Shown here: one piece after another, positions 21,591 to 60,405 of the stretch
Numbering within the stretch: position 1 is the first letter of the stretch
How the letters are laid out: the number at the start of each line of letters is the position of its first letter
Source: Pisaster brevispinus
Lineage: Eukaryota > Echinodermata > Asteroidea > Forcipulatida > Asteriidae
Length of the DNA stretch: 64,000 bases
Direction of reading: 5' to 3'
NCBI GenBank assembly: GCA_023634235.1
Contig: JAMKCF010000002.1
Location: forward strand, 12,103,091 to 12,167,090
Made by a program: the position numbers and the translations under genes
Notes under the pieces: generated by a model
The model's input: only the letters and a program-made list of their open reading frames with translations
The model's database searches: none
What the model was told of the DNA's origin: nothing

Positions 21591-21671
21591 TCACCTTAAC
21601 AGGATGCGAATTTTTAATAATAAATATCAATTAATAAACCACAGGGGAAACTGACTGGGGATATTTTTTTA

Positions 21672-26664: not shown

Positions 26665-26857
26665 ATGTGGACTCCGAAGTTAGCGATCCTTTTGTCCTTG
26701 GTGTTCTTTGCGAAAGCTGAGCTAACCCTCCGTGAGCTGTCGACGGTTTACCTACCGTACAGGTATTCGCCTAGCGGGGACGGACTATTCGCCCAAGGAG
26801 ATGGGTCCTCGAAACAGAGCGTGTACGACGGAGCTAATGCGATGGTATACACTGTCG
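26665..26857 (+). CDS. MSP130 first exon, copy A (alternative or orphan)
   Basis: A 193-nt coding exon from ATG to a GTGAGT donor, the same length as the exon at 34439-34631. It encodes a signal peptide (MWTPKLAILLSLVFFAKA) and the start of the mature protein, ending in NAMVYTVG. It has no stop and differs from copy B at only a few codons. No exon 2 lies between it and copy B, so it is either an upstream alternative first exon of the gene that continues at 38229, or an orphan left by the duplication. The upstream sequence (26100-26664) is conserved with copy B, so its promoter may also be intact. Confidence 0.7.
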
Positions 26858-29243: not shown

Positions 29244-29303
29244 TTGTAATAATAAATATCAAGTAATAAACCACAGGCGAAACTGACTGGGTAATGTTTT
29301 TTT

Positions 29304-29763: not shown

Positions 29764-29941
29764 ATCACCCTACCTTTAAGTTGAACAGTGTTGTCGATTA
29801 TCGTTGAATTGGGGCGTTGAGCATACGGGGTTGAACGTTGAGTGAACTCTTGTAGTCAAACAGATTGATTATGCATTCTCAAGTGCTTCGCTATCCTTTG
29901 ACTATTTTTCATAAACAACATTTTCTAAGTTTTGATTCATA

Positions 29942-33680: not shown

Positions 33681-33709
33681 AAAGGTGGCTATGATGATCG
33701 CAGCAACCT

Positions 33710-33970
33710 AAACATCCGACGTCACACTTCGAGGTTCGTGAATATCGCCAGATAGCAGCCTTGTGTTTCCAAGATACCTTATCATTGAATTCCGAGTTTC
33801 GGGGATACGGTATCATTGAATTCCATGTTTCCAACAAAATATTCCGTGTTTCTGAGATAAATTATCTCGGTAACTCAGTAACGTGATGGCAATCTAAGCT
33901 TCCGTAGTCTAAACATCCGACGTCACAATTCGAGGCTCGTGAATAACGCCAGATAGCAGCCTTGAAGCAC
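33710..33970. repeat. Satellite remnant between 55-bp direct repeats
   Basis: TAAACATCCGACGTCAC through GATAGCAGCCTTG occurs at 33710-33765 and again at 33910-33965. Two 31-bp satellite units and their diverged end lie between. In copy A only the right-hand repeat is present after the large array. Confidence 0.75.
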
Positions 33971-34438
33971 CTGGCTGGATCCTGCCAGATGTACCTCTGA
34001 CCTCGCATCCCATTCACACGTGTACATACATTACATTACCCTTGATTAATTACAAGCATTATGCCCATCACGCAGAAGCAGACGATCGAAAGTACAGTTC
34101 TGTTGGTGTAATGTATGTACAAGTGACAAGGTACGCAGTTCGCCGCAGACCAATCATAACGCAGACATTGAATGTTTACGTCATTGCACGTTTATCCATT
34201 GATACCATTTGGCCTGTAAAACTAGTGCCTGTCTTTTTGCTTGCGGACAAAGATAGGGGACCTGTCTACGATTGCGGCGTCTTTTGATAATTACTATTCT
34301 TAAATCAATACAGACGTAAGGTCCCTGGATCAGTAAATCCACGCGTCTTACAAATCAGTTATAATTCTCTTCATTTGTGCTCTAAATATCAGTGGGTACA
34401 GACGTGGCTTGTTAGAGTCTCCCAGAACACCAGCGAAA

Positions 34439-36367
34439 ATGTGGACTCCGAAGTTAGCGATCCTTTTGTCCTTGGTGTTCTTTGCGAAAGCTGAGCTAAC
34501 CCTCCGTGAGCTGTCGACGGTTTACCTACCGTACGGGTATTCGCCTAGCGGGGACGGACTATTCGCCCAAGGAGATGGGTCCTCGGAACAGAGCGTGTAC
34601 GACGCAGCTAATGCGATGGTATACACTGTCGGTGAGTTTATTCATCGAGGTCATAATGTATTTGAGTTTGTTTTTCTTTTGGTGAAGAATTCGTGACTAT
34701 AACTATTAGAACGTTTCTTTGTGTGTCCGGGTTCAAAAAGTCTATGGTGTAAAGTACATTGTACTTTGAGACCGTGACCTTCAAACAACTTGTTTTTTTT
34801 GGCTCAGTTTTGTTTTGGTTGATGTATTGAACTAAATTCTATCAAGCTGGAGCAAGGGTAATGTTTACGTTCAGTTTCTCATCACACGACTTTGATCTCT
34901 AGGGCGAATGAATCATGACCTTGGTAATTTCCTGATTGACACACAGTGATTGATTTCCCTTGTATTAATAAGCGAATATTGTTACGCAATTTGTAGCAAT
35001 TGCAACTCAAAAATTCGCCATTAGCTTTACTCAATATTAGCATCCTGTGTGCACAAAATCTGCTCAGTCAAAAATATTTTGCTATGCAAAAATGATGGAT
35101 GAAATCGTTCCCTAACACACTTTCGTAAAGCGCGATTCATTTATTTTTGGTCTAACTACACTTGTTTGTGTTCTAATAACTTGATCAGCTAATTGCTCCA
35201 CCAGATCCACCAGATACTCTTCAAGGGTATCTGGTGAAGCAATTAGCTGATCAAATTGAAACAATCGATTTAGAATCTCTCCCGCTTTGAACTTTCGTTA
35301 TGATGCATGTTTCAAAAGTCCCTGAACTTGTTTGTTCTTTCATGTTTGTTTGACCATGGTTGAACGTAACATCATACACTGGGTTTCATGTTGGATGAGT
35401 TAAAATCTATTAAAGCGGTTAGACTCAGAACACAACTCCGTCAATCACCGTAGGTATGCGACCTTATAAACGCCTCACTTGTAAACGTCATTTTTTTCTC
35501 GTAGCCTATGTGCATAATATTTATAGCCTTGGATTTACAGCTGGGAGGCCAGATTCATTAATCACTTCGACTGGGTTGTTGTCTCAGGCCGGGCTTGGGG
35601 TAGCTCGGAGAGACAGTAAGCAGTCATGGCTCGAAACTCCACGCAATCGACGAATGAGCAATGGGTCCATATTGTTTGTGTTTGTGTGGACCACCAAATA
35701 ATGAGCTTGTTTTTGAAGCCTAGACACATAACTATGAAACTGTAAGATTTGAAACTTTGCAGTGGCGTAACAAGAGTTGTTGGGGTTGCAAGCGAGGGCA
35801 AAGACACCAAAAATATTAAAAGCGGCATAACGACAAACTACTCTGGACTATCATGTTTTTTACTTAAATTTTAGTTTAAAAGTCGATTTAAAACATGGAC
35901 TATTTTACGGGCGCTTGTCTCAATTATGACGATTGATGCTCTATTTAAACCAGGATGCCTTTTAATCAGCAGATGTTTTGCAAATCTTGGTTCGCTCGCA
36001 TTGCCGTAAAATGTTTTCACTTCCATTATTTTGTGTAGGGAATACTTTGTGAAGAAGGGCGTAGCTGACATTTTGCAGTATCTGTTGTGTGTATAGCAGC
36101 TTATTCGACGGAAACTCATTTAAGAACAGGTGTTTTCCACGTGCTGGTTTAGTTATGCTCTAGTTTCCTCTTCCTGTATCAAGGCGGCTGTACAGACAAA
36201 AACAGACCGGTAGTAAGTGTCAGGCGATTTCGACCCATAATGAATAAATTTGTTTCTTATCCGCATGTATACGGTGCGAAGTTAAAAAAAAAAAAAAAAA
36301 AAAAAACAAAAACAACAACAATAACAACAACGACGACGACAACGACGACGACGACGACAGCAGCAGC

Positions 36368-36459
<92 letters not shown>

Positions 36460-39400
36460 GCAGCAGCAGCAGCAACAGCAGCTGCAACAGCAACTTCAAC
36501 AACACTGTTTCGGATCCCAGAGAGCCTGACCAAATTCTGGGTCAGTTTCACCAGAAATCTGTGTTAAAATGACACCTGATATGGGTCAAAGTGACGGAGA
36601 ATCGGAGCTAAGTTCCCGTTCTTCAGAAAAAACAGTCTCCTTGTCAGATTGACTCAGAAAATAGGAATTAAATAAGAAAATAATTGTATTCTAATGTCTT
36701 TTTAAGTACGAGGGCCAAGGCAATTTCTGTTGTATAGACCCCTTGCATTGGCCGCCATCGTTGATGAAACGTACACGCGTAAAAGGCTACACACTCAGAA
36801 CAAAAGGTAAAAAAAAGTTACTTAATTGAAGTAAAAAGCCACGAAAAAAATATACTAAGTTGTTTTGTAAAAAAAATAAAAACATAATCAAAGGATAAAC
36901 TTACTGTTTACTTTATGTTTTGTAAAGTTACAAAAGTTAAGAGTAAACTTTACATGTAATTTGTAAGTTTTACAAGGAAGTGGTAAAAAGTAACCGAAAT
37001 TGAAGTAAACTGGTCCACGTGAAAACATTTTCCCATAATGCAAATGTAATACACTCGTGCATGTATAAGCATTAGAGTAAGCAAGTCGCAGGCACACATA
37101 ACAATCCAAGATGGACGGGGGTGGACAGAACACTGATGCTGCAGGGTTTTGATGCTTGGAGTTCGCGTGTTCAGAGTTGCAAGGGGGACTTTGGCTTTAT
37201 GGTCGTCGTGGAACAACAGTCTGTCGAAGAGGGAAAGGACTCATCCAGGAAAATCATGGCGTACTAGCTGCAAAGACTTTCAACACGAAGGCTTCAGCAA
37301 TGGGGCAAATTAAACCGTCGAAAAAGGTCTGATTAAACCAACCGGCTCTTTTCAGAGCCAGCACCTCTTTCCAGAAGAGATTTTTTACCTTGTCTGCCGG
37401 GCTGAACCCCCCCCCCATTTTTTACACTATTGCTGCTACGAGTATTTTTTTTTTCTGTGTGTATGTCGCAAGAACTAACTTAGCTGCTTACCCACTGATT
37501 TGGTACAATTTTCCCAAATTATTTTTAGCAATGTATTATATACAACAAATAAATTTATCTAATACCGAAATAAAGTTTTACACAAATATTTACTAAGATC
37601 TTATCTTTTACATTGTAACGAGGTAAAGCCATACTTCATAATTGGGTAATGTTTTACATAACTTAGGTTTACCTAACAATTCAGTAAATGAATTTACCCA
37701 ATATCGAGGTAAAGTTTCACACAACTATTAACTAAAACCTTACCCAACCCCTGTTGGGTAAAGTTTTACATAACAGTTATGAGGTTCACCTGCAACTACT
37801 CAATTAGGTAAAATTTTACACAAGCTGTGAATTTTTTTCTCTGTGTGTATCATTGGCTGAGAGTCGCGCGCAGCGCGTACACGCCTGCAATTTTCCATTG
37901 TTTTTCATCAAAGATGGTGGCCACTGACGTCATGTGCAATCCACTTATACTTGTATATAAATAGCAATAAACCAAATCAATCAATCAAATGGTTCAGGCT
38001 CCCTGAAACCCGATCCGGGTCAATCCTGACCCAGGAGTTTTTAGAGTGTAGCATTAGCAGGTTGAGGGCTATAAGGGTTCGAGCCAAAATGGAGGGGCAT
38101 TGTTCATGAGCACTTAAGACAATAGATGGGAGAGGGAGGGGATATAAAGGCACCCAAAACCCACAATTTTGTTGTGTTTTTGGCGAAAGATAAGATTATG
38201 AGAATGTGTCCGTCTTTTTCTTCACAAGGTGATAATTTCATCCACGTCACGAATTACTCTGATGTCACGCGGCCAGTTGTCGTTTACCACGAGGCACTTC
38301 CCGCCGTAGGCAATGACGTAGAATTGTGCGGTAATGTGGTAGGCGTGGCTCTGGACGGACATCCGGGCACTGTTGGATTGTACAGGCTGTATGATGCACA
38401 AAGTGGTCAGCTGGAATCACTGGCAAGGATAACAGGTAAGTACGGAATCCCATTCGTAAACCGTCACCACAAACTTTGTAATTATTGCTTGAACAGAATT
38501 CCATTTAAGATTCCCAAACCCATATTAATCGCAACCTCGCAACCGATTCTTACACAGGCTGTCTCCGATTAATTGTGTACTGCTCTGATATTTATAAGCA
38601 ACGGTGCATCTGAATAACTTACCACCCAGAGCCGGGTGTAGAATACAAGATTGATTGGAAAGTTTTGCCCATTTCAGTCGGTGATCGGCCAGACATGCTA
38701 AAGTTCACCCACGACTGTGGTACGATCGTGGTTGCCAACGAAGGAGAGCCGTACGAAGTATCGGGCTACATCTTTGATCCTGAGGGGTCAGTCTCGCTCA
38801 TCCACGTAGATTTACCAAGTGTAACCTCAAATATCACCAACTTAGACTTCAAGTCATTCAACTCCAGGTATGAAAACAATTAATGTTTGATATCCCATAA
38901 CTGTCCGTATTTGACAAGTGAGAGCGACAGTTGGTAACTGATAGGTCTTTTAATAACCAGCGAGATTGTTCTAGGATACCCTTCATCTAAGACAGAGATG
39001 TTTCTTGGAGATGTCAACATTCTCGCAAAAAAAATTCAATGACGGTTTATGTCCCCAGCTATTTCATTATGGATTAGGAAGCTAAAGTCTACATATGTCA
39101 TTTGAATGGCCTCATTGTACACAAACCCTTCAACGAAAACTAAACAATAACGAGCAAAGTCAACACACCGTGACGACTGAGGTGACACTGATGGGATAAG
39201 AGTCAGGATATTGCGACGGTAAACAGTAAGTTATAACAAACAAACATTGACTTTGTTGAGACAAAGATAAAGAAGGTTTCGCAGCAATATTTTTACGAAG
39301 TGAACTTCATTGCAAATATTTATCCGCTTGCAGGGCGGATGAGTACGTTCGTCGGGGAGTGAGGTGGCCGTATAAAGGAGAGTTGGGTGAGAGTCAAAAC

Positions 39401-42400
39401 ACTCTATCGCAGTCTCTGGAACCGGAGTATATCACATTCAATTATGACGACACTAAGGCCTACATAAGCCTGCAGGTATGACCAAGTATAAAACACCAAA
39501 TACCATATTATTTACAGCTGCGAAACCAAATCAAGCTTACCACAATCTACTTTTACCTAAAAGCAGAACAGGAACACCAGCCAAGATGTAATATAACATA
39601 ATCGCAATGTGGCTGGTCCCCTTCTGAACTTTTAACATTGCTCAGTAGCGTAAATTGAAACTGGGGAGGCAAAACAAAAAAGATATCAGATGGCGGTGAA
39701 AGTTTGTTTTTCAACTGTCTTCCCTGTTTATAGGAGAACAATGCAATTGCTGTAATCGACCTGGTATCCGAGACGATTGTTGATATCTACCCCCTTGGTT
39801 TCAAGTCCTGGCGTAATATCCTGCTGGATCCTAGCGATAAGGATGGAGGTATGCCTTGTTTGATTGTGTTTACTTTTTACTCCTTTGACAATCCCTGCTT
39901 ACATATCCTTATATCAAAATAAATAAAAACTATCAATCAAACAATCTATCAATCAGCCAACCAATCATGCCATAACATTCCACTGGATCCTTGCGATGAG
40001 GATGGGGTATATTTTTATTTTTTCCTATCCTGCTTGGATGATTAACGACATTTTACAGCATCAACAATTGTATTAGGCGGGAACTGTTGTGATACTTTGT
40101 GTTGTCTCTTCAGGGCCACCATAGATTTTATTTTACAGCGTTATGTCTATGTGGTCTCGGTTGCCCTTTTCCAACACTCGATATTTCTTACAATGTCTGT
40201 CCGCCTAGGCATCAACTTCGCTGCATACGATATCTACAGCACCTACCAGCCAGACTCTATCAAGTACATGAGAGTGGATGGTGTTGATTACATTGTGACA
40301 GCCAACGAAGGGGATGATATGTCACTTTCAGCCGGTGGTAACTCATGGAAAGAAGCACAGCGTGGAGAAGACTTCGTTGACGGTAGGAATTCCAAGATAC
40401 CACTTCTTCCAAAAGAAAACCTATTTTCACATTGCTGTTGCCCGTATAGGCCTATCTAAGCTTAGTTCCTACGCCACAGCTTAAAGGAAAGTGATTTACA
40501 CATATTTTTTTCTGCTTATCAGTTGTTCTTAAAAATTAACAGAGACATGATTTATACCAACTCATAGATAACGCACTGTAACCTGCGAAATGACAAAAGA
40601 ACAAGACCGTTAGCGCAACCGCAGCTGGATTTTAAAGTGAGCCATCTAAAAAACCAATCATGCGGCTACCAGTAGAAACATGTAACAATAGCACAGACTT
40701 TTAAAGTGTGGGCCTAATAATACAAAGTGTCATCACCCAGTAGCTTATTTTTACTCGTTAATTACTGTTATTTTCTATGCTTATAGAAAATCAGCTTTCA
40801 AGCTCCGTGCCAGATGCAGTCAGAGCTGCCCTTGCCGATGATAACAAGCTTGGTAAGGCAAACTGACAACATGCTCAGTAGTTATTTCAATTTTTATATA
40901 AGCTAACCAATGTGCTGTTTAATTGCACTTCAGCCATTCACACTATTTATGCTTACACCCTGCTATAAAAACGCACATCATTATTCACTTGTCCGACAGG
41001 ACGGTTGCAATTTAGCACTGTCGACGGCCGGAGCACGCAGAATACCAGCAAGTTCGATCGACTCTATTGCTATGGGGCCCGTAGCGTTACGGTATTCAGG
41101 GCCGACGACTTTTCGCTGGTTTACGACACAGGAGATGAGATCGAACGTAAGCACGCCATCTTCTATCCGAACATTTTCAACGCCGACTACGACAGTGACG
41201 AGCCCGACACGGAAACGGTAGAAGACAGGTTCGACAAACGCTCGGATTCAAAGGTCAGTTTTAAAGTACAGATCTTGTCAATAACTTATCCAGAAAAACA
41301 TAGATCATTGCTGAATGAAAATCCTTTGATTATAAAACTTACAATCAATCATACAGAGATATAATTTCCGTCTGAATACTGTAATAAAAATCATTTGAAG
41401 AGCGCCCCCCCCCCAAAAAAAACAAACCTAAACAAACAAACAAAAATCAGTGCAGTTTATTTTAAACGCGCAACCGAAATAAGCTCAATACAAAAATGTG
41501 CGCAAAAAAAGAAACCGTTTTTCGTGTTTTCACTTAGAATGATCTAATTTTGTGGAATTTTCACCGGTTTGCTGTTTGGCGTTTTAATTTATGCTAGAGG
41601 TTGTGAATAAAATACTTTCATACATATTATCTGTAAAATATGTTTTTTAAATGGTACGCTCGAAATTATCTGATATTTATGTTGCTGCTTTTAAGGGCCC
41701 CGAGACCGAGTCAGTTGAGATTGCAGAAATAAACGGCCAACGTGTGATGTTCGTTGGGAACGAACGCACGAGTACCATCATGGTGTACACCTTCGAAGAC
41801 AGCTCAACTACTCCGAACTTCGAGTCTATCTACCGTTCCGGAGGAACCAGTGACACCTACACGGAACTCTACAACGCAAGAAACCTCGGTGATGTGGACC
41901 CTGAAGACCTACGGTAGGCTTTTTTCTTCTCTCTTTCTCTCTCAACCAGTGGTCCGTGACTGGGCACAATTTCACGGCACTGCTTGCCACAGAAGTATGC
42001 AGTTATAGCTCTCTGTGAAGCACCTATTATGTAAATCTTTTGATCCATTACTACAAACAAATCTTTCGCCTATTGTCCACCATATAATTGGGTTCTTACC
42101 GTGGACCCGACGTTTAAACTAAAACTTTTCTACACAAATATTTAAACATAAAATTTGATTTGTACAAATTTTTAATCTGTCATCTTTGGCACAGATACTT
42201 CGTTTTGTTAATTAAGAAATAGTTCCGGTCAACAAATTAAACACTTTTTGGGCACCACACAATGAGAAAATAGTTCTGTAATTATTTATTTTATTTTCCC
42301 CCCAAGAACCAATTCCATCGCTGTGTTCATTTCGTAAAAAACTTCACTATTCCTTCCATCGACAGGTTTATCAATGCGTCGGATACTCCATCCGGTAAAC

Positions 42401-45400
42401 CGCTTCTACTCGTCACTAGTACTGTAAGTGGGACAGTGAGTATGTACGAAGTCATCGACAGTGATGATCAAGAATCAACTACCAGCACCAGCGACGACTA
42501 CAATGGTAAGTCTGTTACTGAATATTATGTTCGACATGGACCATTTTGTCCGACAACCGATTTAGGGCACTTTTTAACCCACTGTGCCCAACATGTCCGA
42601 TCGATTGTAATGCGAAGATATGTATAGGACCCATTGTGTGCGACAAAATGTTCGACCCATTGTGTCAACAACGACAAAGTGACTCCGACTCATGTCCGAC
42701 AAACTGTAATGTCCGACACAAATTTGTGGTCATCAGGCATATTGATCCATGTCGGACATGATGGTTGACAGCATACGTCTCTTTTTAGCACAGCATGAAA
42801 TTTTCTCCCCTTAACTCAATCTTCCCAGCAGAAGCTCAAGCAACAGGTGCAGTGCAGCATTCTCCCACCTGAATACTAGCATACGAAGCGTCGATCGACA
42901 CCCGACATTCTTAATCCCGGTTCTTAATTCTCAGAACCCAAGATTTCTTCTAGAGAAGATTAACTCAAAAGGGTGTCACTCAAGGGAGATCTTCATATCC
43001 TCTATATTACGAAAACCTGTTAGTGCCAGCTCGGTATCTTTATTTTCAAAAGCAGTTTTTTTCATTTTTAAAAAACCGTTACTTTTATTTTAAAAGCAGT
43101 TATTTGTTTTTATCAAGAGCAGCTCAGGTGGGATATAAAACCACATAAGTGTTGCTACCATGTTTGTCAAGTTCCCTGGAGGTATACTTTGGGTGATTTT
43201 TATTGATTCTCGTAATCAAAGGAGCAGACTATAGTATCCTTCTTGCAGTCACTTTGTTTACATTAGCAGATTGTGCCTCGTTCAAGTTAGCTTTTCAACA
43301 AGCTTCGGGGATATATAAAACTGAACATTTTAATGACGTCTTGTATTTCATTTTCCAGTGGTGTTGGATCCCATCTCGACGGTTTACGTGCCATACGATT
43401 ACAAGTCAGATGAGACTCCAAAGTACGCACTGGACGAAGATGCAGTAGAACAAAGCACTTATGATAAGGTCAATGCTATGATTTACTCTGTTGGTAAGTC
43501 AAGTTTATGTGCTAATGCCCACAGCTGGATGTGAACTATCCAATCTAAGCATGCTCAAAATAATCGAAAGTTCAAATAAGTAATTCATACAACGTAACAC
43601 GAAAGAAGAACTTTATTTCAGTAAACTGATTGCGTTGGATGTAGAAAATTGTCAGTAGTTTGAAATGCATCAATAATTCTCAACGTTTTTGAAATTACAT
43701 CCTGAGATTCATGAGTAAAACTCCACATTGCGATTTTTGATTATATTTTTGTTTTCACCCCATTCATTAGGCGGAAAATTTCTGCACGTCATAGATATCT
43801 CTGACGTCACGCGGCCGAACATTGTTCATTACATGGAGCTACCCGCCTCTGGGAACGACGTTGAGCTATGTGGCAATGTTATTGGTATTGCTTTAAATGG
43901 TAACCCAGGAAAAGTGGAATTATACAGCCTCTATGACAGCCAAAATAATGATCTCGCTCTCACTGTAAGCGTTACAGGTAAGGCAAAAAGGACCCACATG
44001 TTATATTTTCAAAGTGTAAACCTAAACCAGTTGTACACCATTTTGTTCAAAGAGTCCTGCTGTATGACCTGACTAGTGAACTGTTGACGGAATAAAAATA
44101 AGGGGGCATGAGTATGGAAAGGAGACATGAGTATGAGATGGAAACTAATAAGCATAGACTGGTTTACTGTTTTGTGAATACTTGGTGCAGCCTATACCAG
44201 TGGTTTAAGAAACCCTCCACAGACGTTTTTAACAAGAGGTACCAGACCATGCCAGAATCATCGCTGCAAGCCCCTTCTCGTTATACAATAAGTCTTCTGG
44301 GTTTGCCTGCGTAGCCTTGTTTCAAAACCTCACTTGTTAGGCCTTCATCGCGAAATCAAATTAATACTGAAGAAAGGGTCTGACACATAATATTACCATA
44401 GCGGTTCGTTGAATGATTAGTGCCCTCTGTCGGCGATGTATGTCATCTTCGGAGTACATTGTTTTGGCGACTAAGGCCGTTTTCTTATCAAAGGAAACAT
44501 TTGAAAGGTTGCGGCTTTGACTGCAGCTGGATCACAACTTTATGCTTTAAAGTATATAGGCTAGCCTTAGCAACAGGCACAGCCACAGCCGCAAACTTGG
44601 ACACAGCCATCGACAAGAGCGTCTTCAAACCATGATGACGTGCATAGTAATGTTACACTTAAAATAATTTTGACTGTATGTTTTCAGTTGGGAGCAGACC
44701 AGACATGCTGAAATTCACCGCTGACTGTCGTACCATACTGGTAGCTAACGAAGGATACACGACTGAAGATGATGGGTACATCGTTGACAATGAAGGTTCT
44801 GTCTCCATTCTTCATCTCAGTGAAACGGGAACTGTTGTCAGCAACATCCACTTGGACTTTACGTCTTTCAACTCAAGGTAACAATAAGTTAATCAGGCTA
44901 TGTTATCGTAAGCACCATAAACTTGGACTTTGCGTCTTTCAACACAACTTAACAATAAGTTAACCAGGGTATAAACTGTTGTATGAAAACAACACATGAA
45001 CTTTGGGTCTTTCTACACAGAATAACAATAAGCTAACAATGCTATAAACTGTTGTAAGAAACATTAACTCGAACTTTACGTCTTTCAACTCAAGCTAACA
45101 ATAAGCTAATCAGGTTTTAAACTGTTGTATAAAGCAACATCAACTAGGACTTCACAGTCTATTGTAGTGCAAGAAGAACAATGTGGGAGGATAAAAACAG
45201 CTCTTTTCACTGACAGCTTTGAAATGAAGTAAATACGAGGAAGTGCTTACATTTTCAGGTTTTTTTAGTAAAAGCTTTGACATCCTCTACTTTTAACTTT
45301 GTTAACACCGTAAAATCAACATGTGGACAACATATGTACGTTTGTTTTTGATAGTCAAGATTTCAGAAGATTATCTCTGAAGAACTGGTGTTCTCACTGG

Positions 45401-48400
45401 TATGGACATTTTTATCAATGACTCTTCTGTTTTTAAAGTTCTGAATATTAATAGCGGGTGACGTCATAATGAAATAAAACATAAACAATTAAGTATTTTG
45501 GTTCCTGAAAAATTGATATCTGATAGGCCTACTCAGGATCATTTACCCGCTGAGAAAATAATTTTTGTTTTTGTTTATTTTTTCAGAGCCTCAGACTATC
45601 TCGAGCGCGGTGTCAGGTGGCCTTATAGGGGAGAAATTAGTAAAAACCAAACAGCATTTTCTCAATCAATGGAACCAGAGTATATTACTTTAAATAAAGA
45701 TGACACCAAGGCATACATTTGCCTTCAGGTGAGATAGAAATTGACATTATCAGTCCATGGAACCAATGTATATAGAACCAGAATACAAACTTTATGGACG
45801 AAACGAACGCATCATTTGCCTTCTAGGAAGATATTGGAATTATTTCAGTTAAAAGGAGCACAGCCAATGGAACCAGATGAAATATAGAGGAACCAAAGGC
45901 ACCATTGCCTTCAAGTAACACATAGGACCGGTTCCATTCAAGGGAACCACAGTCAATGCTGGCACCAGAATGGATCATGATTGCCTTCAAGTAAGATTAG
46001 GAAGTACGATATTTCAAAGGAACCAGAGTCAAACTATGCATTAAAATACAGATGAAATAAACACATACATATTTCTTAAGGTGAGATTATGAGTTACTTT
46101 CACTGGGAACCCAGGGTCAGTGGCACGCAAGTCAATGGAACCATAGTATATCACCTACACCGTAAATGACTTATCACATCCTTTAGCTACATAATGAAAG
46201 TTGCAAAAACCTTCCACGGGAACCAAAGTGAATAGAACCAGACATTTAACACTCAATGACACCATCGCTCACTTATTGAGTAACAGTTTTTAATTAAAAA
46301 GTCGGTAATCCGCCATTTTTTTCTTCAAAAATCTAAAAAATTCCAAGTTCAACAAGTGCACCTAGCCAAATATCTTATCACTACCCGGGGTTTGTTTTTC
46401 ACTAACACAATCCAACAATGACCCGCTCTCCAGGAATTCCCATAGGTATTGTACAGCAATTACTTAGCCTTGCTAAGTTGTGTGAACAAAGGGTGTTATT
46501 CAAAGAAATGGTTGATTGAGCAGAAAGAGACGTGTGGGCTCATCTCAAAATACAATTTTGCTTGAATTGATTTTATTCAGTCAAAAGGATCTATATCTAA
46601 TGATTTGGGTGGTTTAAAAGTGATTTGATTCTTCACAGAAATGTATTACACGCTAAAATCAAACTGTTACTCAACAAGTAAGGCATGGCGAAATGGTGTG
46701 ATATTTTTTTGATGGTGTCACGAAGAGTTAAGCTGCAATTGATGTAGCACTTACAAGCTACACCAGTCAGTATAGAGGACCCATCCCCACCAACAATGAA
46801 AAGAAACCAAATTATAACACCAAAAACTGATGCAAAATTATTGGTGAATATGAGACATTTAACAGAAATGAAACATTCATAGGAACCTAAATGTAATTGC
46901 AATCATAACACGATTCAAAATCATTAAGGAACACAAAATGAAGCCAAAACAAAACTAATGTAGAAATTATGTTTCATGTTTTCGTACTTTTTGATCCACA
47001 GGAAAACAATGCTATCGCAGTGATAGATCTAACTTCAGACACCATTGTAGACATTTATCCTCTTGGAGTTAAGTCCTGGAAGAATTTACTTCTTGACGCA
47101 AGTGATAAAGATGGCGGTAAGTGAGGAACTGAGCAAAATATTCATACTTTGAAGAAACCAGTGCCTAATTTCGCGGTCTCTGCTTCCGCGGGTTTGTCTG
47201 CTCATGGTCACCATTTTCGATTTCTACGAGTTCTGTGTAAGCTTATGGCATAGTAACATGACGCACGTGCACAGGCAAACTGCGATGCCATAATGCACAC
47301 TGTTCATAGCTTATTTCGGTTGCTGCACTCAACATTAGCAAAGTTGATTTGGTGGTTCTTCAAACGGTATTTCATCGACTTTTCCCCCTCTTTTTTTCCC
47401 GACTTTTTTTTCCTAGGGATTAATTTAAAAGCGTACGATATCTACAGCTTCTATCAGCCTGATGCTATTAAATACATGGAGGTGGACGGTATTGGTTACA
47501 TCATTACGGCCAATGAAGGAGATGACTTGGATTATGACGCTGGTAATCGAGAATGGGCCGAAGCACAACGAGGAGAGAAGTTTGTGGACGGTATGTCAAA
47601 TTAATGTACAACTTTCCAATATAACAACTGTGAACAAAATGACATCTGAGGGTGCGATCTCCCCTTTGTTGAAATAGTTTTACCCAAAACATCACAACGT
47701 GAGTGTTGGTGGCTTTTGCTATTGCTCAGGTTGTTAATCCAACCGCAGCCGCAGTCTTTAATTTAAAGGGGCCTACTGCTTTCCGGCTACTGTTTGATAC
47801 GGGGCCCCATGAGTGCCAAACAACTTATCAAAATTTCTAATTCACTAATTCGACAAACATAAACTGAGATATCACTTTGCCATATGAGAATTTATCTCAC
47901 CCAGGTGAACTTACTGAATAAACTGGGGCTTGGTGGGGCAAATTAACCCAGCAAGTAAATTTTTAGGCTTAGTATTAGTCGAGTTATTCTTTACATCAAA
48001 ATGGTCGACTTGGCGAGATAAACGATATCCAAATAAGTGATATGGCACCCATGAAGCTCCGTAGTCGTATATAAAATCACATACTTTTATAACGTGATTT
48101 TTTGTTGACTAAGTGCTACTTTTAAGACAGCATGACAACGTTCTTTGTTTCTCTTCGACAGATAACGAGCTCTCAGATTCGGTGTCTCCTGCACTGCGCG
48201 ATGCTCTAAACGACGATGGCAAACTAGGTATTTCGATATCTGCTTTGGGGCAAAACATGATCAGTGTTGCTGCATGAGTTAACTTTTAAAAATTGACAAT
48301 TTGTCTTTTTATTTCATTTAAATTGACAAGATTCACAGGTGTGTCACAGGACACGGTACTACATCATCATTCCAAGATATAGTAATTCGAGGCACTTTAT

Positions 48401-49287
48401 CAAACATTATTAAAATCTGTCATCCTTTTTAGGCCGACTGATGTTCAGTACAGTGGATGGCCGCAACCAACAAAATCCCAACAAGTTCGACAAGCTTTAC
48501 TTCTTCGGAGGGCGTAGTTTCTCAGTGTTCAGAGCGGACGATTTCTCACTCGTGTACGACAGTGGGGACGATGTTGAACGACAACACGCCATCTTCTTCC
48601 CGGAGGTTTTTAACGCTGAAGGGAAATCAAGTGACCCTGGCGACGAGTCACCCGAAGACAAATTTGACATCCGTTCTGATAACAAAGTAAGAATAAGGCC
48701 CAAAACAACGGCTTTGGTTGTGGATATGCCTGCAAGCCCGAGCCAAATACACTCAATTTAGACCAATGATCAGGAACCCTTTCTTTGCAGCTTAATTCCA
48801 CGTTGACAATAGACCTTTCTATAAGATGTGCCTCCTATTATCTTATGCACATTGCCACTTTCATTGTATAGATATCGCTCTCAAGGGTTGAGACATGTAA
48901 TCCCTGATTTTTCCAATGACGAGATGAACAGGTGAACCCTTACCCTTATTTTGACACAAAAATCTCACAAACTGGCGACGAGGATGGGATTACATGTCTT
49001 AGAGAAAACCTATACGATACACTAACATCAGAATTGAAGAAAGCACTGTAGAGGGTTGTTACACTCGTACCCTCTCATCTCTTTTACAAAAAATACTCCA
49101 GATATTCCACGTCAATCAGGATTCGAAAAGAAACCCTTTGCAAATTTCTGAGAGTTTAAGGCTTATAGGACTGGAACTTGCCGGTCACTGTGCCACCAGG
49201 GAAGAAGAAGCAGTTTCTAAGGTCTTTCAATGGCAGCTCAAACATGAAAAAAAGCTAGTGCCCCCCCCCCAAAAAAAAAAAAAAAAA

Positions 49288-49323
<36 letters not shown>

Positions 49324-52300
49324 AATACATAAAAATAAATAAATAAATAAATAAATAAAATAAAATTTAAAAAATAATAATAAAAAAATAACTTCTATAG
49401 GAAGAGACAGGTTTAATTGAACAGAATATTAAAAACTTGTCACCCAATTTCAAAGACTTTTTATCTCTTGAGTGTACTGATAAACGGCTACTGAAACTTG
49501 CCGGTCACTGTGCCAGGAGGAAAGAAGAAGCAATTTTGTTATGGTCCTTCTATGCAAGCCCAAGTTTAGAAAGAAAGCTAGTGGTCTCCCGAGAAAGGAC
49601 TACATCAAACTCCTGTCAGAAGACGTAGGCTTCATTGGACATCGAGACATAACGAACTGCACGTAAGACAGAACTGTGTGGAAGGCCGTGTTGGAACTCC
49701 GACCCTTCCTGTCGCCATATAGGCAACAAGCAGAAAACCTCACATCAATGACAGAATACTTCGGATGATACACCGAATAAACGTCTTGACAGTTATTGTT
49801 TCCAAAAAAAGGCTGGGAAATTAAAAATATTGCTAAAAATTATTACCCTTGCAACAAAGGTAATGATCACCTTTGTGGCAGGTCCAAACTTGGCAACATC
49901 GTGACGTCATCACAAATTATCACATTTATAAAGCTATTGCATGTTGGGAAATTAATGTTTGGTTGATTTCCTGTTTTCAAAATACTAGGGACCGGAATGC
50001 GAGGCGGTCGAGACGGGAGAGCTAAATGGAAAACGTCTCCTGTTTATTGCACAAGAGCGCACCAGTACTGTGATGGTGTACAGCTTCCCGGAACGATCCG
50101 CTGTTCCGAAATTCGAGTCAATTTACAGGGCTGGAGGGACGAGCGACTCTTTCGAAAAGCTACTGAAAAACCGGAACCTTGGGGATCTTCATCCGGAAGA
50201 CTTGAAGTAAGTTGCAACCAGCTGGAATTCACGGCAATGCATGTGTCAGCTGAGATCATTCAGTCTATTGTTGAAAAAAGTGAAAGTTCGAACAATTTCC
50301 TAAATTTATGGGTTTTCATCCTCGGTTTGGCTGCTCCGTACAGAATTAATATTGAATCCATCTAACTCAGGCAACAAGGTTAATAGCATTAATAACAGGA
50401 ATATGAATAAGAACAAGAATAATATTCATGATGATCAATAATATGCAAAAACACTAATATTATAATAAGAATTCAGAAAAAAAAATATAAAAAAAATTGA
50501 AATTTTGTAAGCGTGTGAGCGAAATAGGTTTCGAGTGATTGTTGTGAAGAACTCTGGCTGGCGAAGTTTTACAAATAAAAATGGGAAGACCGTTCCAGAG
50601 AGTCTTTAATGGCAACTATTTACAACTTGCATTATTCATGAAAAGCACTGTTAATTTTATTGTAATTAAATAAAAGTAATGCTAATTTGCATGAAAATGA
50701 CTGCCTGTTACCACCAGGTAGTAGCTTCAAGGGCAGTTCAAAAATCAAATCATCCATCAATACAGATTGTGATGTGCAAAATGTTCATTTCTGAAAAACG
50801 TCGCTCGCTAAAAGTCAATTAAATTCCATAACAATGAACTTAAACCATACATCTCAAACATTTATACTGTATACTTAAAGTTAGTGTGGCTGTTGAGATT
50901 GTTCAGTTGTTCCGTTGTGTTTTGGACCCCACAAAGACCGGTGGGTGTGCTCACACACACACACACACACAACCTTACGGATCCGGTTTGTGGGGTACTG
51001 CTATTGTTGTTCTATTGTTCCCTTTTCTAAAGAATTCCCTTGTGGGGCCCTATTGTTCCTATTGAAATTGCCTTGTGGGGTCCATTGTTCCATTGTTATA
51101 AGTACCCCGTAAGTTGGCATGTGTAAGGGCACCCATTCTTAAAAATGCATCTTTCCTTTGTCACTGCACTTAATAGTTTCCCAAAGACTTTGTACACAAA
51201 TTTCCTAATGGAGCACCCCGGTCTTTAGAATTTCCATGTGGAGACCTTTGTTTTTCCCTTTTTTGTTTTGTCCTTGGTCTCCATAAGAGCACACCCACAC
51301 ACTTTAATCTTCGTGTGAACGAGTGGTTTGGTCTCACTGGCCTCTTCTCTTTGTTCTGTGTTTTGTCTGTTCGAGGCTGGGATAAAGGAAGTTTGCTTCC
51401 TTTTCTAAACATGTTGGCCATGACGATTCGACATTGAACCTAGCCTGTAATGCCTTATCTATGTATACATCTACATGCAATTGTATACCATTTTCGTATC
51501 CCTACATTTTTGAATTCTCATCGTCTTCTGGTTTTTTTTCTCGTTGTAGATTTATCCCAGCCTCCGATAACCCCAGCGGTAGACCAATCCTATTGGTAAC
51601 AAGTACAGTCAGCGGCACCTTGTCGATATACGAAGTGAAGGAGGCCCAGATAAGACAACTTAATAATGGTAAGAACACAAGGGGATCAACTTGATCATTG
51701 AAATTGATCATGTTTCAACCTAATCAATAGAATCAATTAAATCAATCGAATCAAAATTAAATCAAATCAATAAAACCGACTAAAACCGTTAGAATTATCT
51801 AAATCAATAAAATCAGCTGGATTACTGTTATACTAATTAGACCCCGACAAAATCAAAATCAACCATATCCATAGTCAACACTCTTAAACCTCCCGGGTCA
51901 CAATTGGCCTATATTCCGGGTCCCAAGGGGGCCCTGACGCGATTCTGGGTCAAGCAGACCCAGAGAGGGGTTTTAACAAAAGCCTGTGACTTTAGCCCAT
52001 AATTGGGTAGGATCTATGTAGGACAAACAGTGGCCATCTGCTTTTCTGCTATCAGTATAGCAGAAAATCTGATTAAATGTTATTGACTGTTCAATTTTGT
52101 CCCTTTTCTGCCACCTGAAAATTACTCTTTACTCTTGTGCATTCTACCGTTCTGCTTCTTGCATACTATAGCCTTTACAGGAAAAAGCAGATTTTACTCA
52201 GACGGTCAAAAAGTTGCCTTTTTCTTTTCTGCTTTCAGAAGACCTTGAAACCAAGTGGCTAATTTGTAAAAAAAACCGACTTATATTCAGGTGGCAGAAT

Positions 52301-52955
52301 TTAAAAGGAGAGAATGGAGAAGTTGAAATTATCGTTGAATCTCCCTTTTTCCCGTTCTGAAAGCACAAAAGTAGAAGGTCACCTTCTTCAATACAGGCCC
52401 AATGGAACCCAGTCAATTCTGATCCGGATGTCTTTAGAGTGCTGTTATCAAATGAATCAACGAAATCAACAACATCACCAATGAAATCAGCCAAATAATG
52501 GCATTAAACCGTAATCAATAGTAATAAAAACTCGTACCGTTTCCACCAAATCCACATGGACACAAAACACAAACACAATACAATATACACTGCAAAAATC
52601 GGGGTGTTAATCTGACACCACGGGTGTCGTCACATTTAGATACCGACAACATGATAACAATTTACACCACAGGGTGTTAAAATAACAATTATATTGTTAT
52701 TTTAACACCCTGTGATGTTATTTTTTATTCTTTGTTAGGTGTATATATATGCGTGACGACACCCATGGTGTCAGTTTTAACACCCGAGTTTTGCAATGTA
52801 AACTTACTTTATAAACAATTGTCCTACTATTAAAATCTGATGCGAAAAACTCTACTGTTTACTTCTTTTTTGTAGGAGGCAGTCCATATTTACGTATGTC
52901 GGTGATGACGTGGATTGTCTCAGCATTAGTGTACGTGACCACCAAGATGTTATGA
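34439..52955 (+). CDS. Two-repeat MSP130-like GPI-anchored surface protein
   Basis: Relative of MSP130, the mesenchyme surface glycoprotein linked to echinoderm skeleton formation and homologous to bacterial choice-of-anchor I proteins. Twenty-one exons join in one frame (3,399 nt, 1,132 residues). Exon 1 is 34439-34631; repeat 1 is 38229-38435, 38678-38867, 39334-39475, 39734-39848, 40209-40382, 40787-40852, 41000-41253, 41696-41913 and 42366-42505. The linker exon is 43359-43493. Repeat 2 is 43771-43977, 44688-44877, 45587-45728, 47002-47116, 47417-47590, 48162-48227, 48433-48686, 49989-50206 and 51550-51668. The last exon is 52876-52955. All introns are GT..AG. Residues 1-18 are a signal peptide, and the last 20 or so residues are hydrophobic after NNGGS, as in a GPI signal. 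The ATG at 34439 is chosen because the signal peptide follows it directly; an upstream in-frame TTG is ignored. Known MSP130 proteins mostly have one repeat, so this is a doubled form. Confidence 0.9.
35181..35254. repeat. Hairpin, copy B
   Basis: Counterpart of 27407-27480 in intron 1 of the MSP130 gene. The arms pair from TTGATCAGCTAATTGC through CCAGATACC with one mismatch region. Confidence 0.75.
36284..36490. repeat. Compound microsatellite (A)n, (ACG)n, (CAA)n, (CAG)n
   Basis: A run of about 22 A is followed by ACG, then a long CAA block, then CAG. It lies in MSP130 intron 1, and all open frames across it are homopolymer artefacts. Confidence 0.97.
36743..37940. mobile_element. TIR element of about 1.2 kb, non-autonomous
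   Basis: The left end (TGGCCGCCATCGTTGATGAA, later CACACTCAGAACAAAA) pairs with the inverted right end (complement of GTGGCCACCATCTTTGATGA, later ACACACAGAGAAAAAA) over about 100 bp with mismatches. The interior repeats loose versions of AGGTAAAGTTTTACACA. No transposase frame was found. Sequences at about 36511 and 38010-38052 resemble the ends of the ACACTCTAAA family seen at 51878-52443, so it may be nested. Confidence 0.55.
38229..42505 (+). CDS. MSP130 repeat 1 (exons 2-10)
   Basis: Exon lengths are 207, 190, 142, 115, 174, 66, 254, 218 and 140 nt. With the end of exon 1 they encode residues about 27-566. Family landmarks are GNDVELCGNVVGVALDG, PDMLKF..DCGTIVVANEGE, LEPEYITFNYDDTKAYISLQ, ENNAIAVIDL, GFKSWRN, VTANEGDD, FSTVDGRS and LLLVTSTVSG. 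They match the bacterial family closely, including the EPEY..AY..LQENNAIAVIDL core. No membrane helix is present. N-linked glycosylation sites are seen at NYS and NTS. The acidic stretch at the end (DSDDQES, DDYN) leads into the linker exon. Confidence 0.9.
39974..40010 (+). repeat. Degenerate copy of an exon 5 end in intron 5
   Basis: CACTGGATCCTTGCGATGAG plus GATGGGGTAT mirrors the end of exon 5 and its donor (TGCTGGATCCTAGCGATAAG plus GATGGAGGTAT, ending at 39848), about 159 bp downstream. Confidence 0.6.
42520..42730. repeat. Degenerate short repeats in intron 10
   Basis: Motifs close to TGTCCGACA and ACCCATTGTG recur at least six times with irregular spacing. There is no sign of coding. 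Confidence 0.5.
43359..43493 (+). CDS. MSP130 linker exon 11, exon-1-like without signal peptide
   Basis: A 135-nt exon, phase 1 on both sides. Its residues (STVYVPYDYK ... VNAMIYSVG) align with the mature part of exon 1 (STVYLPYGYS ... ANAMVYTVG), but a start codon and signal peptide are missing. This joins the two repeats into one chain and argues against two separate genes, since exon 10 is not followed by an anchor exon either. Confidence 0.85.
43771..51668 (+). CDS. MSP130 repeat 2 (exons 12-20)
   Basis: Exon lengths are 207, 190, 142, 115, 174, 66, 254, 218 and 119 nt. The first eight are identical to those of exons 2-9, with the same intron phases. The protein repeats the same landmarks: GNDVELCGNVIGIALNG, PDMLKFTADCRTILVANEG, MEPEYITLNKDDTKAYICLQ, ENNAIAVIDL, GVKSWKN, ITANEGDD, FSTVDGRN and ILLVTSTVSG. 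It differs from repeat 1 at many positions throughout, so the duplication is old compared with the segmental duplications around it. It covers residues about 611-1106. Confidence 0.9.
44850..45165 (+). repeat. Exon 13 end and donor tandemly copied into intron 13
   Basis: A unit made of the last ~45 nt of exon 13 (ACTTTACGTCTTTCAACTCA), its donor and the first intron bases (AACAATAAGTTAATCAGG) recurs. The AACAATAAG part lies at 44880, 44951, 45024 and 45097, spacing 71-73 bp, with a fifth partial unit near 45140. The copies are diverged, and most donors are altered. Confidence 0.85.
45660..46260 (+). repeat. Exon 14 end and donor copied into intron 14
   Basis: Diverged copies of TCAATGGAACCAGAGTATAT and of TTGCCTTCAGGTGAGAT recur after the real exon. 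GGAACC occurs at 45671 (exon), 45759, 45869, 45943, 46019, 46105, 46137 and 46219. The period is irregular, mostly 75-110 bp. Confidence 0.75.
49150..49570. repeat. Direct repeats and microsatellites in intron 18
   Basis: CTTGCCGGTCACTGTGCCA plus GGAAGAAGAAGCA-like sequence occurs at about 49167 and 49496, about 329 bp apart. Between them lies a compound (A)n/(TAA)n/(AAAT)n microsatellite at 49268-49390. Confidence 0.8.
51878..52443. mobile_element. MITE, ACACTCTAAA-type ends
   Basis: The left end ACACTCTTAAACCTCCCGGG pairs with the complement of CCGGATGTCTTTAGAGTGCT on the right, and CACAATTGG / TCAATTCTG pairs further in. The interior of about 560 bp has no coding frame. It lies in MSP130 intron 20 and is duplicated at 58042-58611. 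Confidence 0.6.
52587..52799. mobile_element. MITE with GGGTGTTAA-type inverted ends
   Basis: The left end ACACTGCAAAAATCGGGGTG and right end CACCCGAGTTTTGCAATGT are inverted repeats. Inner blocks (GACACCACGGGTGTCGTCAC against GTGACGACACCCATGGTGTC) also pair, so most of the 213 bp folds back. The duplicate is at 58757-58989. Confidence 0.75.
52876..52955 (+). CDS. MSP130 last exon, GPI-anchor signal
   Basis: An 80-nt exon coding for GGSPYLRMSVMTWIVSALVY plus five residues and TGA. A small-residue cluster (NNGGS, across the exon junction) precedes a short hydrophobic end without a basic cytoplasmic tail, as expected for a GPI attachment signal. MSP130 in sea urchins is GPI-anchored. Confidence 0.8.
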
Positions 52956-54031: not shown

Positions 54032-54224
54032 ATGTGGACTCCGAAGCTAGCGATCCTTTTGTCCTTGGTGTTTTTTGCGGAAGCTGAGCTAACCCTACGT
54101 GAGCTGTCGACGGTTTACCTACCGTACAGGTATTCGCCTAGCGGGGACGGGCTCTTTGCCTGAGGTGCTGGTTCCTCAGAACAGAGCGCGTACGACCCAG
54201 CTAATGCGATGGTATACACTGTCG
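54032..54224 (+). pseudogene. Dead MSP130 first exon
   Basis: Colinear with the 193-nt first exons at 26665, 34439 and 60213, including the signal peptide. It has a TGA at 54161-54163 (LFA-stop) and the donor GT changed to CT at 54225, so it can neither be translated through nor spliced normally. Confidence 0.9.
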
Positions 54225-56888: not shown

Positions 56889-58041
56889 GCGGTGTTGGAA
56901 CTCCGCCCCTTCCTGTCGCCATATAGGCAACAAGGAAAAAACCTCACATCAATGACAGAATACTTCGGATGATACACCGAATAAACGTCTTGACAATTAT
57001 TGTGTCCAAAAAAGGCTGGGAAATTAAAAATATTGCTAAAAATTATTTGGACCCCACAAAGACCGGTGGGTGTGCTCACACACACACACACACACACACA
57101 ACCTTACGGATCTGGTTTGTGGGGTACTGCTATTGTTGTTCTATTGTTCCCTTTTCTAATTGAAATTGCCTTGTGGGGTCCATTGTTCCATTGTTAAAAG
57201 TACCCCGTAAGTTGGCATATGTAAGGGCACCCATTCCTAAAAATGCATCTTTCCTTTGTCACTGCACTTAATAGTTTCCCAAAGACTTTGTACACAAATT
57301 TCCTTGTGGAGCACCCCGGTCTTTAGAATTTCCATGTGGAGACCTTTTGTTTTTCCCTTTTTTGTTTTGTCCTTGGTCTCCATAAGAGCACACCCACACA
57401 CTTTAATCTTCGTGTGAACGAGTGGTTTGGTCTCACTGGCCTCTTCTCTTTGTTCTGTGTTTTGTCTGTTCCAGGCTGGGATAAAGGAAGTTTGCTTCCT
57501 TTTCTAAACATGTTGGCCATGACGATTCGACATTGAACCTAGCCTGTAATGCCTTATCTATGTATACATCTACATGCAATTGTATACCATTTCCATTTTG
57601 GAATATGTCCATCGAATTAGATTGGGTTGAGTTGGAATTGTAACTAAGTATCCATGGTAGTATCCCTACATTTTTGAATTCTCATCGTCTTCTGTTTTTT
57701 TTTCTCGTTGTAGATTTATCCCAGCCTCCGATAACCCCAGCGGTAGACCATTCCTATTGGTAACAAGTACAGTCAGCGGCACCTTGTCGATATACGAAGT
57801 GAAGGAGGCCCAGATAAGACAACTTAATAATGGTAAGAACACAAGGGGATCAACTTGATCATTGAAATTGATCATGTTTCAACCTAATCAATGGAATCAA
57901 TTAAATCAATCGAATCAAAATTAAATCAAATCAATAAAACCGACTAAAACCGTTAGAATTATCTAAATCAATAAAATCAGCTGGATTACTGTTATACTAA
58001 TTAGACCCCGACAAAATCAAAATCAACCATATCCATAGTCA

Positions 58042-58989: not shown

Positions 58990-60212
58990 AAACTTACTTT
59001 ATAAACAATTGTCCTACTATTAAAATCTGATGCGAAAAACTCTACTGTTTACTTCTTTTTTGTAGGAGGCAGTCCATATTTACGTATGTCGGTGATGACG
59101 TGGATTGTCTCAGCATTAGTGTACGTGACCACCAAGATGTTATGAACACCACCGCACGCAACAACCAGCAGCTGTTGAAATAGAACTCCCCAAAAGTGCA
59201 CCTGAATGTTTTCTTCACAAATTTGTTAAAAAAAACCCCAAAAAAACCCCAGCTTTTCCATTGTATGTTTTTTCACGAAGTAATTAATTTCAATTTATTA
59301 TTATCCCTATTATATTTGTGTAAACTTTGAGTGGACATTGTACGTTTTAGTTACGACAATATTACCAAGTTATTTATTTTTTGTGTCTGAAGTAAATGCC
59401 TTTTTGAAGCATCGAGAGTTACCTCGTCACACACATAAAACAAAAAACAACAACAACAACAAATTACTGAAATACTGACCGAGAAAGCAACTTTCCACAA
59501 CATTTAAAATCCCAGTTTCTTTCTTGACTTTGTATTAAATCATTAAATTTGTTCTCACTGATGTTGCAACCATAATTGGATTGGGTAAATACAAGCCCTA
59601 AAATGAAATTTAGGAAGTCTTACGTCGCTTTGAAATTAAAGTAAAAAATATTCAGTGACACCAAAACTGCTCCCCTGTCAATTATATATAGGCGTTGTCC
59701 CCTCAAGTTATTCTCATCACAAAAATAACACCCATGCATGAATGCTTAATAACCATCCGAGATTGGGAAGGTATCTTAGCCTACGTTATGGTTTAACTAT
59801 GGCTTTTAACAGCATCAAATTTTCAGGGTCTAACTTAAACGCCCTCCCCTGAGTGTCCCCCCTCCCCAAATTTGGTGCCAACAAAACACGGCAAGCCAAA
59901 GGACCATAGTTTAATAATCCGTAAAGGAAAATATTAATGGTTTACACATTTATTATTGTGGGTCTCTCCAAACTTATCACTAGTTGGCACACTGCCAGCT
60001 GTATGAATGAGCGTACAGAGCGCCATCATGTGATAAAGACTCCACAAATTATTTTTCCGCTATGCGCAGCGGCGTAGTGACGTAGAGTTGAAGACCCGAG
60101 ATCCGCACACCCTCGCGCCCGAAACAGTCGTTATTAAGTCCCTTCAGTTGTGCTCTAAACATCGATAAGTACAGACGTTGGCTTGTTAGAGTCTCCCAGA
60201 ACACCAGCGAAA

Positions 60213-60405
60213 ATGTGGACTCCGAAGCTAGCGATCCTTTTGTCCTTGGTGTTTTTTGCGGAAGCTGAGCTAACCCTACGTGAGCTGTCGACGGTTTACC
60301 TACCGCACGGGTATTCGTCTAGCGGGGACGGGCTCTTTGCCCGAGGTGCTGGTTCCTCAGAACAGAGCGCGTACGACCCAGCTAATGCGATGGTATACAC
60401 TGTCG
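60213..60405 (+). CDS. MSP130 first exon of a further gene copy (partial)
   Basis: A 193-nt exon with ATG, signal peptide (MWTPKLAILLSLVFFAEA), no stop and an intact GTGAGT donor. It differs from the functional exon at several codons (LPHGYSSS, FARGAG, AYDPAN). No exon 2 is found before the window ends. With the functional gene's first intron at about 3.6 kb, and a 2-kb element inserted here, the rest could lie beyond 64000, or this may be an orphan. Confidence 0.6.

Follow-up and report, generated by a model that had tools for sequence, protein, structure and literature searches.

A conserved double-headed MSP130 gene in starfish

The question raised by this locus is whether a chain of 21 exons in the window (the whole stretch of 64,000 nucleotides of Pisaster brevispinus DNA analysed here) encodes one protein with two MSP130 units, or two neighbouring genes. 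MSP130 is a skeleton-associated family common to sea urchins, molluscs and brachiopods, and its function is described as undetermined in the portions available of two papers (PMC4536745, PMC6368272), the first of which, in that same portion, has sea urchin MSP130 detected in hard tissues (PMC4536745). Two full MSP130 domains in one frame depart from the usual one-unit form of animal MSP130, the non-starfish animals covered by this analysis having a single copy; we treat unit number as a usual trait of the family, not as a defining one.

Rebuilt exon by exon, the chain (hereafter gene A) runs from 34439 to 52955 in one open frame, with GT..AG at all 20 introns and no internal stop. Its coding sequence of 3,399 nt yields a protein of 1,132 aa, in agreement with the initial annotation, which had 21 exons in frame over 1,132 codons. 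The exons are as follows (R1 and R2, first and second head; all are placed by the exon rebuild):

34439..34631, + strand: exon 1, encoding the signal peptide plus the N-terminal strand of head R1; donor GTGAGT
38229..38435, + strand: exon 2 (R1), 207 nt, phase 1
38678..38867, + strand: exon 3 (R1), 190 nt
39334..39475, + strand: exon 4 (R1), 142 nt
39734..39848, + strand: exon 5 (R1), 115 nt
40209..40382, + strand: exon 6 (R1), 174 nt, identical at 174/174 to exon 6 of gene C (see below)
40787..40852, + strand: exon 7 (R1), 66 nt
41000..41253, + strand: exon 8 (R1), 254 nt
41696..41913, + strand: exon 9 (R1), 218 nt
42366..42505, + strand: exon 10 (R1), 140 nt, next exon in phase 1
43359..43493, + strand: exon 11, linker plus the opening strand of head R2; resembles exon 1 minus its signal peptide (20/46 residues)
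43771..43977, + strand: exon 12 (R2), 207 nt
44688..44877, + strand: exon 13 (R2), 190 nt
45587..45728, + strand: exon 14 (R2), 142 nt
47002..47116, + strand: exon 15 (R2), 115 nt
47417..47590, + strand: exon 16 (R2), 174 nt
48162..48227, + strand: exon 17 (R2), 66 nt
48433..48686, + strand: exon 18 (R2), 254 nt
49989..50206, + strand: exon 19 (R2), 218 nt
51550..51668, + strand: exon 20 (R2), 119 nt
52876..52955, + strand: exon 21, hydrophobic C-terminal tail (GPI-signal-like by eye) and stop

The sizes of exons 2–9 recur in exons 12–19 (207/190/142/115/174/66/254/218 nt) with identical phases, confirming the earlier pairing of eight exons between the repeats; exons 10 and 20 are unequal (140 vs 119 nt). 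The exon sizes had also been called mirror-image, but the two sets run in the same order and the repeat is direct, so that this description is rejected. The likeness of exon 11 to the part of exon 1 downstream of the signal peptide, likewise claimed before, holds at 20 of 46 residues (43%). The junctions after exons 1, 10 and 20 are in phase 1, as are the starts of exons 11 and 21. The halves R1 and R2, of 566 aa each, are identical at 339 of 546 aligned residues (62%) and are synonymously saturated (pS 0.82), a divergence on which we rejected an assembly artefact (collapsed or expanded haplotypes) as their source. As judged by inspection of the sequence, with no dedicated predictor, exon 1 encodes a hydrophobic N-terminus and exon 21 a hydrophobic C-terminus, and the product is probably a secreted, GPI-anchored cell-surface protein.

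The MSP130 locus proved wider than had been noted, with two orphan copies of exon 1, copies of exons 20 and 21, and the start of a second double gene:

26665..26857, + strand: orphan intact copy of exon 1 with donor (tblastn), inside an 8-kb tandem duplication
54032..54224, + strand: relic exon 1 with an in-frame TGA, donor lost (CTGAGT) (tblastn)
57714..57832, + strand: relic copy of exon 20 (tblastn)
59066..59145, + strand: relic copy of exon 21 (tblastn)
60213..60405, + strand: exon 1 of gene B, which extends beyond the window to C2:12184249

The tandem duplication pairs 19.7–27.8 kb with 27.8–35.5 kb, and the orphan exon 1 at 26665 is a possible alternative first exon. Gene B, downstream of gene A, is a second intact double gene of 21 exons, with the same exon order and in one frame; between genes A and B, dN/dS is near 0.3 for both heads, and between genes A and C it is higher (0.49). 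Gene C lies 0.9 Mb away and is single-headed, its DNA being without exons 11–20, and its junction intron joins introns like 10 and 20 of gene B. At 40086–40385, genes A and C match at 297 of 300 bases, with less identical flanks, and gene conversion seems to occur within the family. Contig C415 is a 99.75–100% copy of gene C over the four stretches compared; it is probably a haplotig and was therefore left out of the gene count. In a whole-genome protein search with R1 as query, 60 candidates were scored and 57 matched, every one of them in genes A, B or C, the relics or C415.

Both halves of the gene A protein match PF22494 and NF038117 above the curated cut-off, each being an MSP130/choice-of-anchor I domain, and 64/67 and 65/67 family-conserved columns are kept in the two heads. 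Sixteen columns are fixed for one residue throughout the five R1 rows and for another throughout the five R2 rows; about half of these differences are conservative (eight by our reading), and at R1 position 527 there is T in R1, N in R2 and S in every one of the 52 other rows. A beta-propeller fold is supported by an AF2 model of a relative (P0121, see below) together with propeller matches from Foldseek and VIA. WD40 propellers headed the VIA ranking of fold comparisons, the top PDB list of Foldseek held generic propellers, many of them poorly superposed, and a sequence search of solved structures returned two matches and no others, the S-layer propeller 1l0q at E 9.5e-4 and a second structure at E 0.85. 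A further PDB family of this fold may lie outside these lists. Each head is predicted to be a propeller resembling the WD40 type, probably seven-bladed. For the complete double protein of Acanthaster, AF2 gave a model usable for each head by itself but, at pTM 0.54, not for how the two are arranged.

Two-repeat MSP130, which the initial annotation had proposed to look for in other echinoderm genomes, occurs in two further starfish. Full-length relatives, known as listed proteins, were found in Acanthaster planci (LOC110982645, P0001) and Patiria miniata (LOC119744441, P0002); they share the signal–R1–R2–tail order of the gene A protein, are 66–68% identical to it, and are named "uncharacterized", not MSP130, among the matches listed. 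Because the same two-part protein is present in two other starfish, double-headed MSP130 is an old starfish invention and not a reading error. In Asterias rubens, the MSP130-like P0121 (621 aa) has an exon-1-like part joined straight to sequence like exons 11–21; its exon-1 signal sequence and tail are nearly the same as those of gene A and it is identical to R2 of the window at 449 of 564 residues (79.6%), but it is without R1 exons 2–10, and it looks like a complementary R2-only form. That a head has been lost both in gene C and in the Asterias protein speaks against a constant need for two. Sea urchin MSP130 (Strongylocentrotus purpuratus P0123, 603 aa) has the same domain, with 53% identity to R2, and a signal-like N-terminus and hydrophobic C-terminus as in the gene A protein, but one unit instead of two. 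Bacterial choice-of-anchor I proteins (e.g., P0009, P0015) likewise carry two units per chain, but they are at 35% identity, include domains of other kinds and are laid out differently along the chain; we infer an independent origin for these forms, which lie outside our tree. The literature match to "two msp130" refers, in the portion of text available, to two MSP130-related proteins and not to two units. Within its known family, the starfish double MSP130 is an architectural variant specific to one clade.

A tree was built from 33 rows, including two from bacteria. Every one of the five first heads falls in one clade and every one of the five second heads in another, across starfish (100/99), and the two clades together make up an asteroid clade. 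The asteroid rows belong to a clade of 22 rows (100/99) that also takes in the remaining echinoderm rows and two unnamed ones, apart from the bacteria, and P0121 is sister to R2 of gene B (100/99). Two alternative origins were rejected by the AU test, a forcipulatid-only R1+R2 clade at p-AU 6.7e-5, the alternatives having been chosen after the first tree was seen, of which the test's own note warns. The two clades across starfish and the rejection of the alternatives argue that a single unit duplication occurred on the asteroid lineage and predates the divergence of the window species from Acanthaster/Patiria. The tree and the conservation in two starfish uphold the earlier interpretation of a two-unit MSP130 arisen by duplication, its mirror-image element apart. 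Between a fusion of two adjacent tandem genes and an internal duplication we lean slightly to fusion, because the exon-11 boundary lies at the signal-peptide junction and the locus is tandem in nature.

The abundance of tandem copies and relics at the locus, and the existence of single-unit forms (gene C, Asterias), would suit two adjacent single-unit genes (exons 1–10 and 11–21) misread as one. However, tblastn of the exon 10–11 interval with the whole protein (E 0.05) found no exon-21-like end after exon 10 and no exon-1-like start, with signal peptide, before exon 11; the frame entering exon 11 is not open before 43337 and includes no Met ahead of that exon; Acanthaster and Patiria each list one protein through both halves; and gene B repeats the 21-exon order in one frame. 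On these grounds we consider two genes very improbable. Separate recent duplications in each starfish lineage, or homogenisation mimicking a shared duplication, could appeal to the apparent gene conversion between genes A and C, but are at odds with the R1 and R2 clades and with the AU result for the forcipulatid-only clade, and seem to us more improbable still.

Splicing across exons 10–11–12 was deduced from window DNA and listed relatives, and one gene might be spliced mainly to single heads (exons 1–10+21 or 1+11–21), with the double protein a minor isoform and the working forms represented by gene C and the Asterias protein. The module borders are all in phase 1 and each single-head order is known, one from gene C and the other from the protein listed for Asterias. 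Yet exons 11–20 are missing from the DNA of gene C, which is therefore not a splice form, both heads keep the family residues and have dN/dS near 0.3 between genes A and B, and the double form is the one listed for Acanthaster and Patiria; the chance of this reading is small, if greater than that of the preceding two. The heads might also divide the labour, binding different partners and not the same one twice: they are 38% divergent and differ at the 16 fixed columns, position 527 included, but about half of those differences are conservative and the family-conserved residues are present in both. This we hold to be unlikely, though markedly less so than mainly single-head splicing.

Taken as a whole, a conserved starfish two-head MSP130 gene, derived from one asteroid duplication and with putative bivalency at the cell surface, is in our view highly probable; the two-head architecture is close to certain, and bivalent binding by the heads is a tentative proposal. 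The duplication set a second unit (exons 11–20) behind the first (exons 1–10) and in front of a single C-terminal exon common to both. With all module borders in phase 1, either head can be lost in frame by intron-to-intron deletion, and such a deletion produced the R1-only gene C. Two acidic heads would work jointly from a shared cell-surface anchor, and their pairing could strengthen the binding of a repeated partner, for example a glycan of the matrix or a surface rich in Ca2+; the two heads would since have drifted apart in detail.

Skeletal proteomics of Patiria did not find MSP130, according to the portion of the report available (PMC5460417), which counts against a mineral-matrix role. 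It is conceivable, if rather doubtful, that the double-headed, surface-held form replaced the single-unit one as the main or only MSP130 of starfish, in line with that reported absence from mineral, and that lineages pare it to either head by in-frame deletion. That the two double proteins are labelled "uncharacterized" among the matches listed is a testable point behind the MSP130 missing from the proteome study. A doubled MSP130 across distant starfish, together with natural R1-only and R2-only derivatives, provides built-in constructs for what one head does and what the second adds.

The 21-exon chain of gene A, the MSP130 gene at 34439-52955, was rebuilt from the sequence with GT/AG joins and, as the initial annotation had claimed, stays in one frame, with no internal stops, over 1,132 aa. 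The halves of the protein are 566 aa each and share 62% identity (339 of 546 aligned residues). Exons 12-19, in the second unit (R2, exons 11-20; exon 21 encodes the C-terminal tail), match exons 2-9, in the first (R1, exons 1-10), in both phase and size (207, 190, 142, 115, 174, 66, 254 and 218 nt); these sizes had been called mirror-image, but the term is wrong, as they recur in the same order. The proposed likeness of exon 11 to an exon 1 lacking its signal peptide was borne out, the match (20/46 residues) beginning just past the signal peptide. Between exons 10 and 11, tblastn (E 0.05) detected no sequence resembling exon 1 or exon 21; the frame entering exon 11 extends back just 22 bases from this exon and contains no Met.

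Each half of the gene A protein scores above the curated thresholds for choice-of-anchor I (Pfam PF22494, NCBIfam NF038117); this domain is borne by the MSP130 proteins among the matches listed. A protein database clustered at 90%, with many nameless rows, was searched with the full protein (best 120 of 1,439 matches) and with R2 only (best 120 of 3,975). The former set included two "uncharacterized" proteins related to the query end to end, from Acanthaster planci (1,137 aa, 68% identity) and Patiria miniata (1,135 aa, 66% identity), both with signal, R1, R2 and tail in the same order as in gene A. Using a profile built from single units to scan 234 proteins (233 fetched, plus that of the window), we counted two units in the window, Acanthaster and Patiria proteins. 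The match was worth more than 1.4 units in 14 of the 234, including these three; the other 11 carry no animal name (three bacterial, two generic, six nameless) and are 31-36% identical to the query. No single-unit protein named Acanthaster or Patiria was present among the best 120 of the 3,975 R2 matches, many of them nameless. The two-unit observation is sound, and the double architecture is real and conserved; the gene A protein is a new variant inside an established family and does not amount to a new kind of system.

The window corresponds to positions 12103091-12167090 of its contig, C2, in a genome of 549.7 Mb. A search of the whole genome with R1 (60 candidates scored, 57 matches), followed by retrieval of the stretches, revealed three MSP130 genes: A, B and C.

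MSP130 genes and exon copies other than gene A (plain coordinates are window positions)
60213 (in the window) to C2:12184249: gene B, 21 exons in the order of gene A, intact frame, 1,131 aa
C2:13101444-13089710, opposite strand: gene C, exons 1-10 then 21, intact frame, 594 aa
54032, between A and B: relic exon 1, interrupted by a stop and with its donor lost
57714, between A and B: copy of exon 20
59066, between A and B: copy of exon 21
26665, upstream of A, within a tandem duplication: intact orphan exon 1

The gene C intron tracks intron 10 of gene B until about 100 bases short of exon 11, and then corresponds to gene B intron 20. The simplest reading is that a single deletion would have removed exons 11-20, the frame being kept because introns 10 and 20 are both in phase 1. 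Contig C415, 99.75-100% identical to gene C in four compared stretches, is probably a haplotig. In a 621-aa protein of Asterias rubens, a shortened exon-1-like signal part is fused directly to exon-11-like sequence and R2; judged from this listed protein, it would be the complement of gene C. In its predicted structure, pLDDT is below 50 for most of what remains of exon 1 (residues 28-51), and the propeller is above 90 in nearly all ten-residue blocks.

A maximum-likelihood tree was built from 33 rows (asteroid heads, echinoids, Antedon, Amphiura, hemichordates, brachiopods, amphioxus, mussel, two unnamed and two bacterial). The five R1 rows (A, B, C, Acanthaster and Patiria) formed one clade (branch supports 100/99), as did the five R2 rows (A, B, Asterias, Acanthaster and Patiria; 100/99), with Asterias R2 sister to gene B R2 (100/99), a placement that suggests the window's organism to be kin to Asterias and hence forcipulatid; all ten asteroid heads formed a clade separate from the remaining rows (100/99). 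Constraining forcipulatid R1 and R2 together was rejected (p-AU 6.7e-5), as was placing R2 with four echinoid rows (p-AU 0.0027); because both groupings were picked with the tree in hand, these p-values carry somewhat less weight. The separate R1 and R2 clades, together with the rejection of both constraints, indicate that the unit doubled once in the asteroid line, prior to the split of the window lineage from Acanthaster and Patiria.

Among 67 columns at least 90% uniform across 52 other rows, window R1 agrees at 64, window R2 at 65 and the remaining eight asteroid heads at 61 to 65. dN/dS values, from our own Nei-Gojobori script and without a formal test, were 0.34 (R1) and 0.28 (R2) for A versus B, 0.49 for A versus C and 0.32 for B versus C; between R1 and R2, synonymous sites are saturated. 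Given the kept family columns and the dN/dS values, both heads appear to be retained as working propellers. In 16 residue columns, all five R1 rows are fixed for one residue and all five R2 rows for another; five further differing columns are signal-peptide gaps. At R1 residue 527 (exon 10, 42366-42505) and its counterpart in exon 20, Ser in 52/52 other rows, all five R1 rows have Thr and all five R2 rows Asn.

A similar protein is reported in the feather-star skeleton, msp130 expansions are described as class-specific, with three Patiria sequences at first count (PMC5831733), and MSP130 function is called undetermined or unclear (PMC4536745, PMC6368272). Doubled units are not mentioned in the available portions of PMC5831733, PMC10396339, PMC4750990, PMC9490348, PMC2909932 or PMC4897951; nor is a two-unit MSP130 described in the titles and abstract openings searched, where "two msp130" means two related proteins; an earlier mention may exist elsewhere. 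The value of the present case is twofold: it offers a natural series of double, R1-only and R2-only forms, and it places a doubled MSP130, not labelled as such, in starfish, where one proteome study, of the Patiria skeleton (PMC5460417), reported none.

Over 40086-40385 of gene A, covering exon 6 and the tail of the preceding intron 5, genes A and C (the latter on C2 near 13093000, minus strand) agree at 297 of 300 positions, and identity falls on both flanks; this looks like gene conversion across 0.9 Mb. Upstream of gene A, 19679-27762 and 27797-35535 form an 8-kb tandem duplication (aligned pieces about 86-94% identical) in which an immunoglobulin-domain gene lies together with a copy of the MSP130 exon-1/promoter region; an alternative first exon could be provided by the second exon 1. 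A 398-aa open frame at 21950-23143 has an Ig domain (Ig_3, E 1.6e-8); its tandem copy (29936-31107) is split at about 30100-30300, the longer piece lacking an Ig match. An array of short tandem repeats with register shifts of about 62 bases (25172-26098) lies upstream of the orphan exon 1. Between the MSP130 relics, a 222-aa open frame (55740-56408), with no Pfam match at E 0.01, seems to resemble the end of a retroelement polyprotein.
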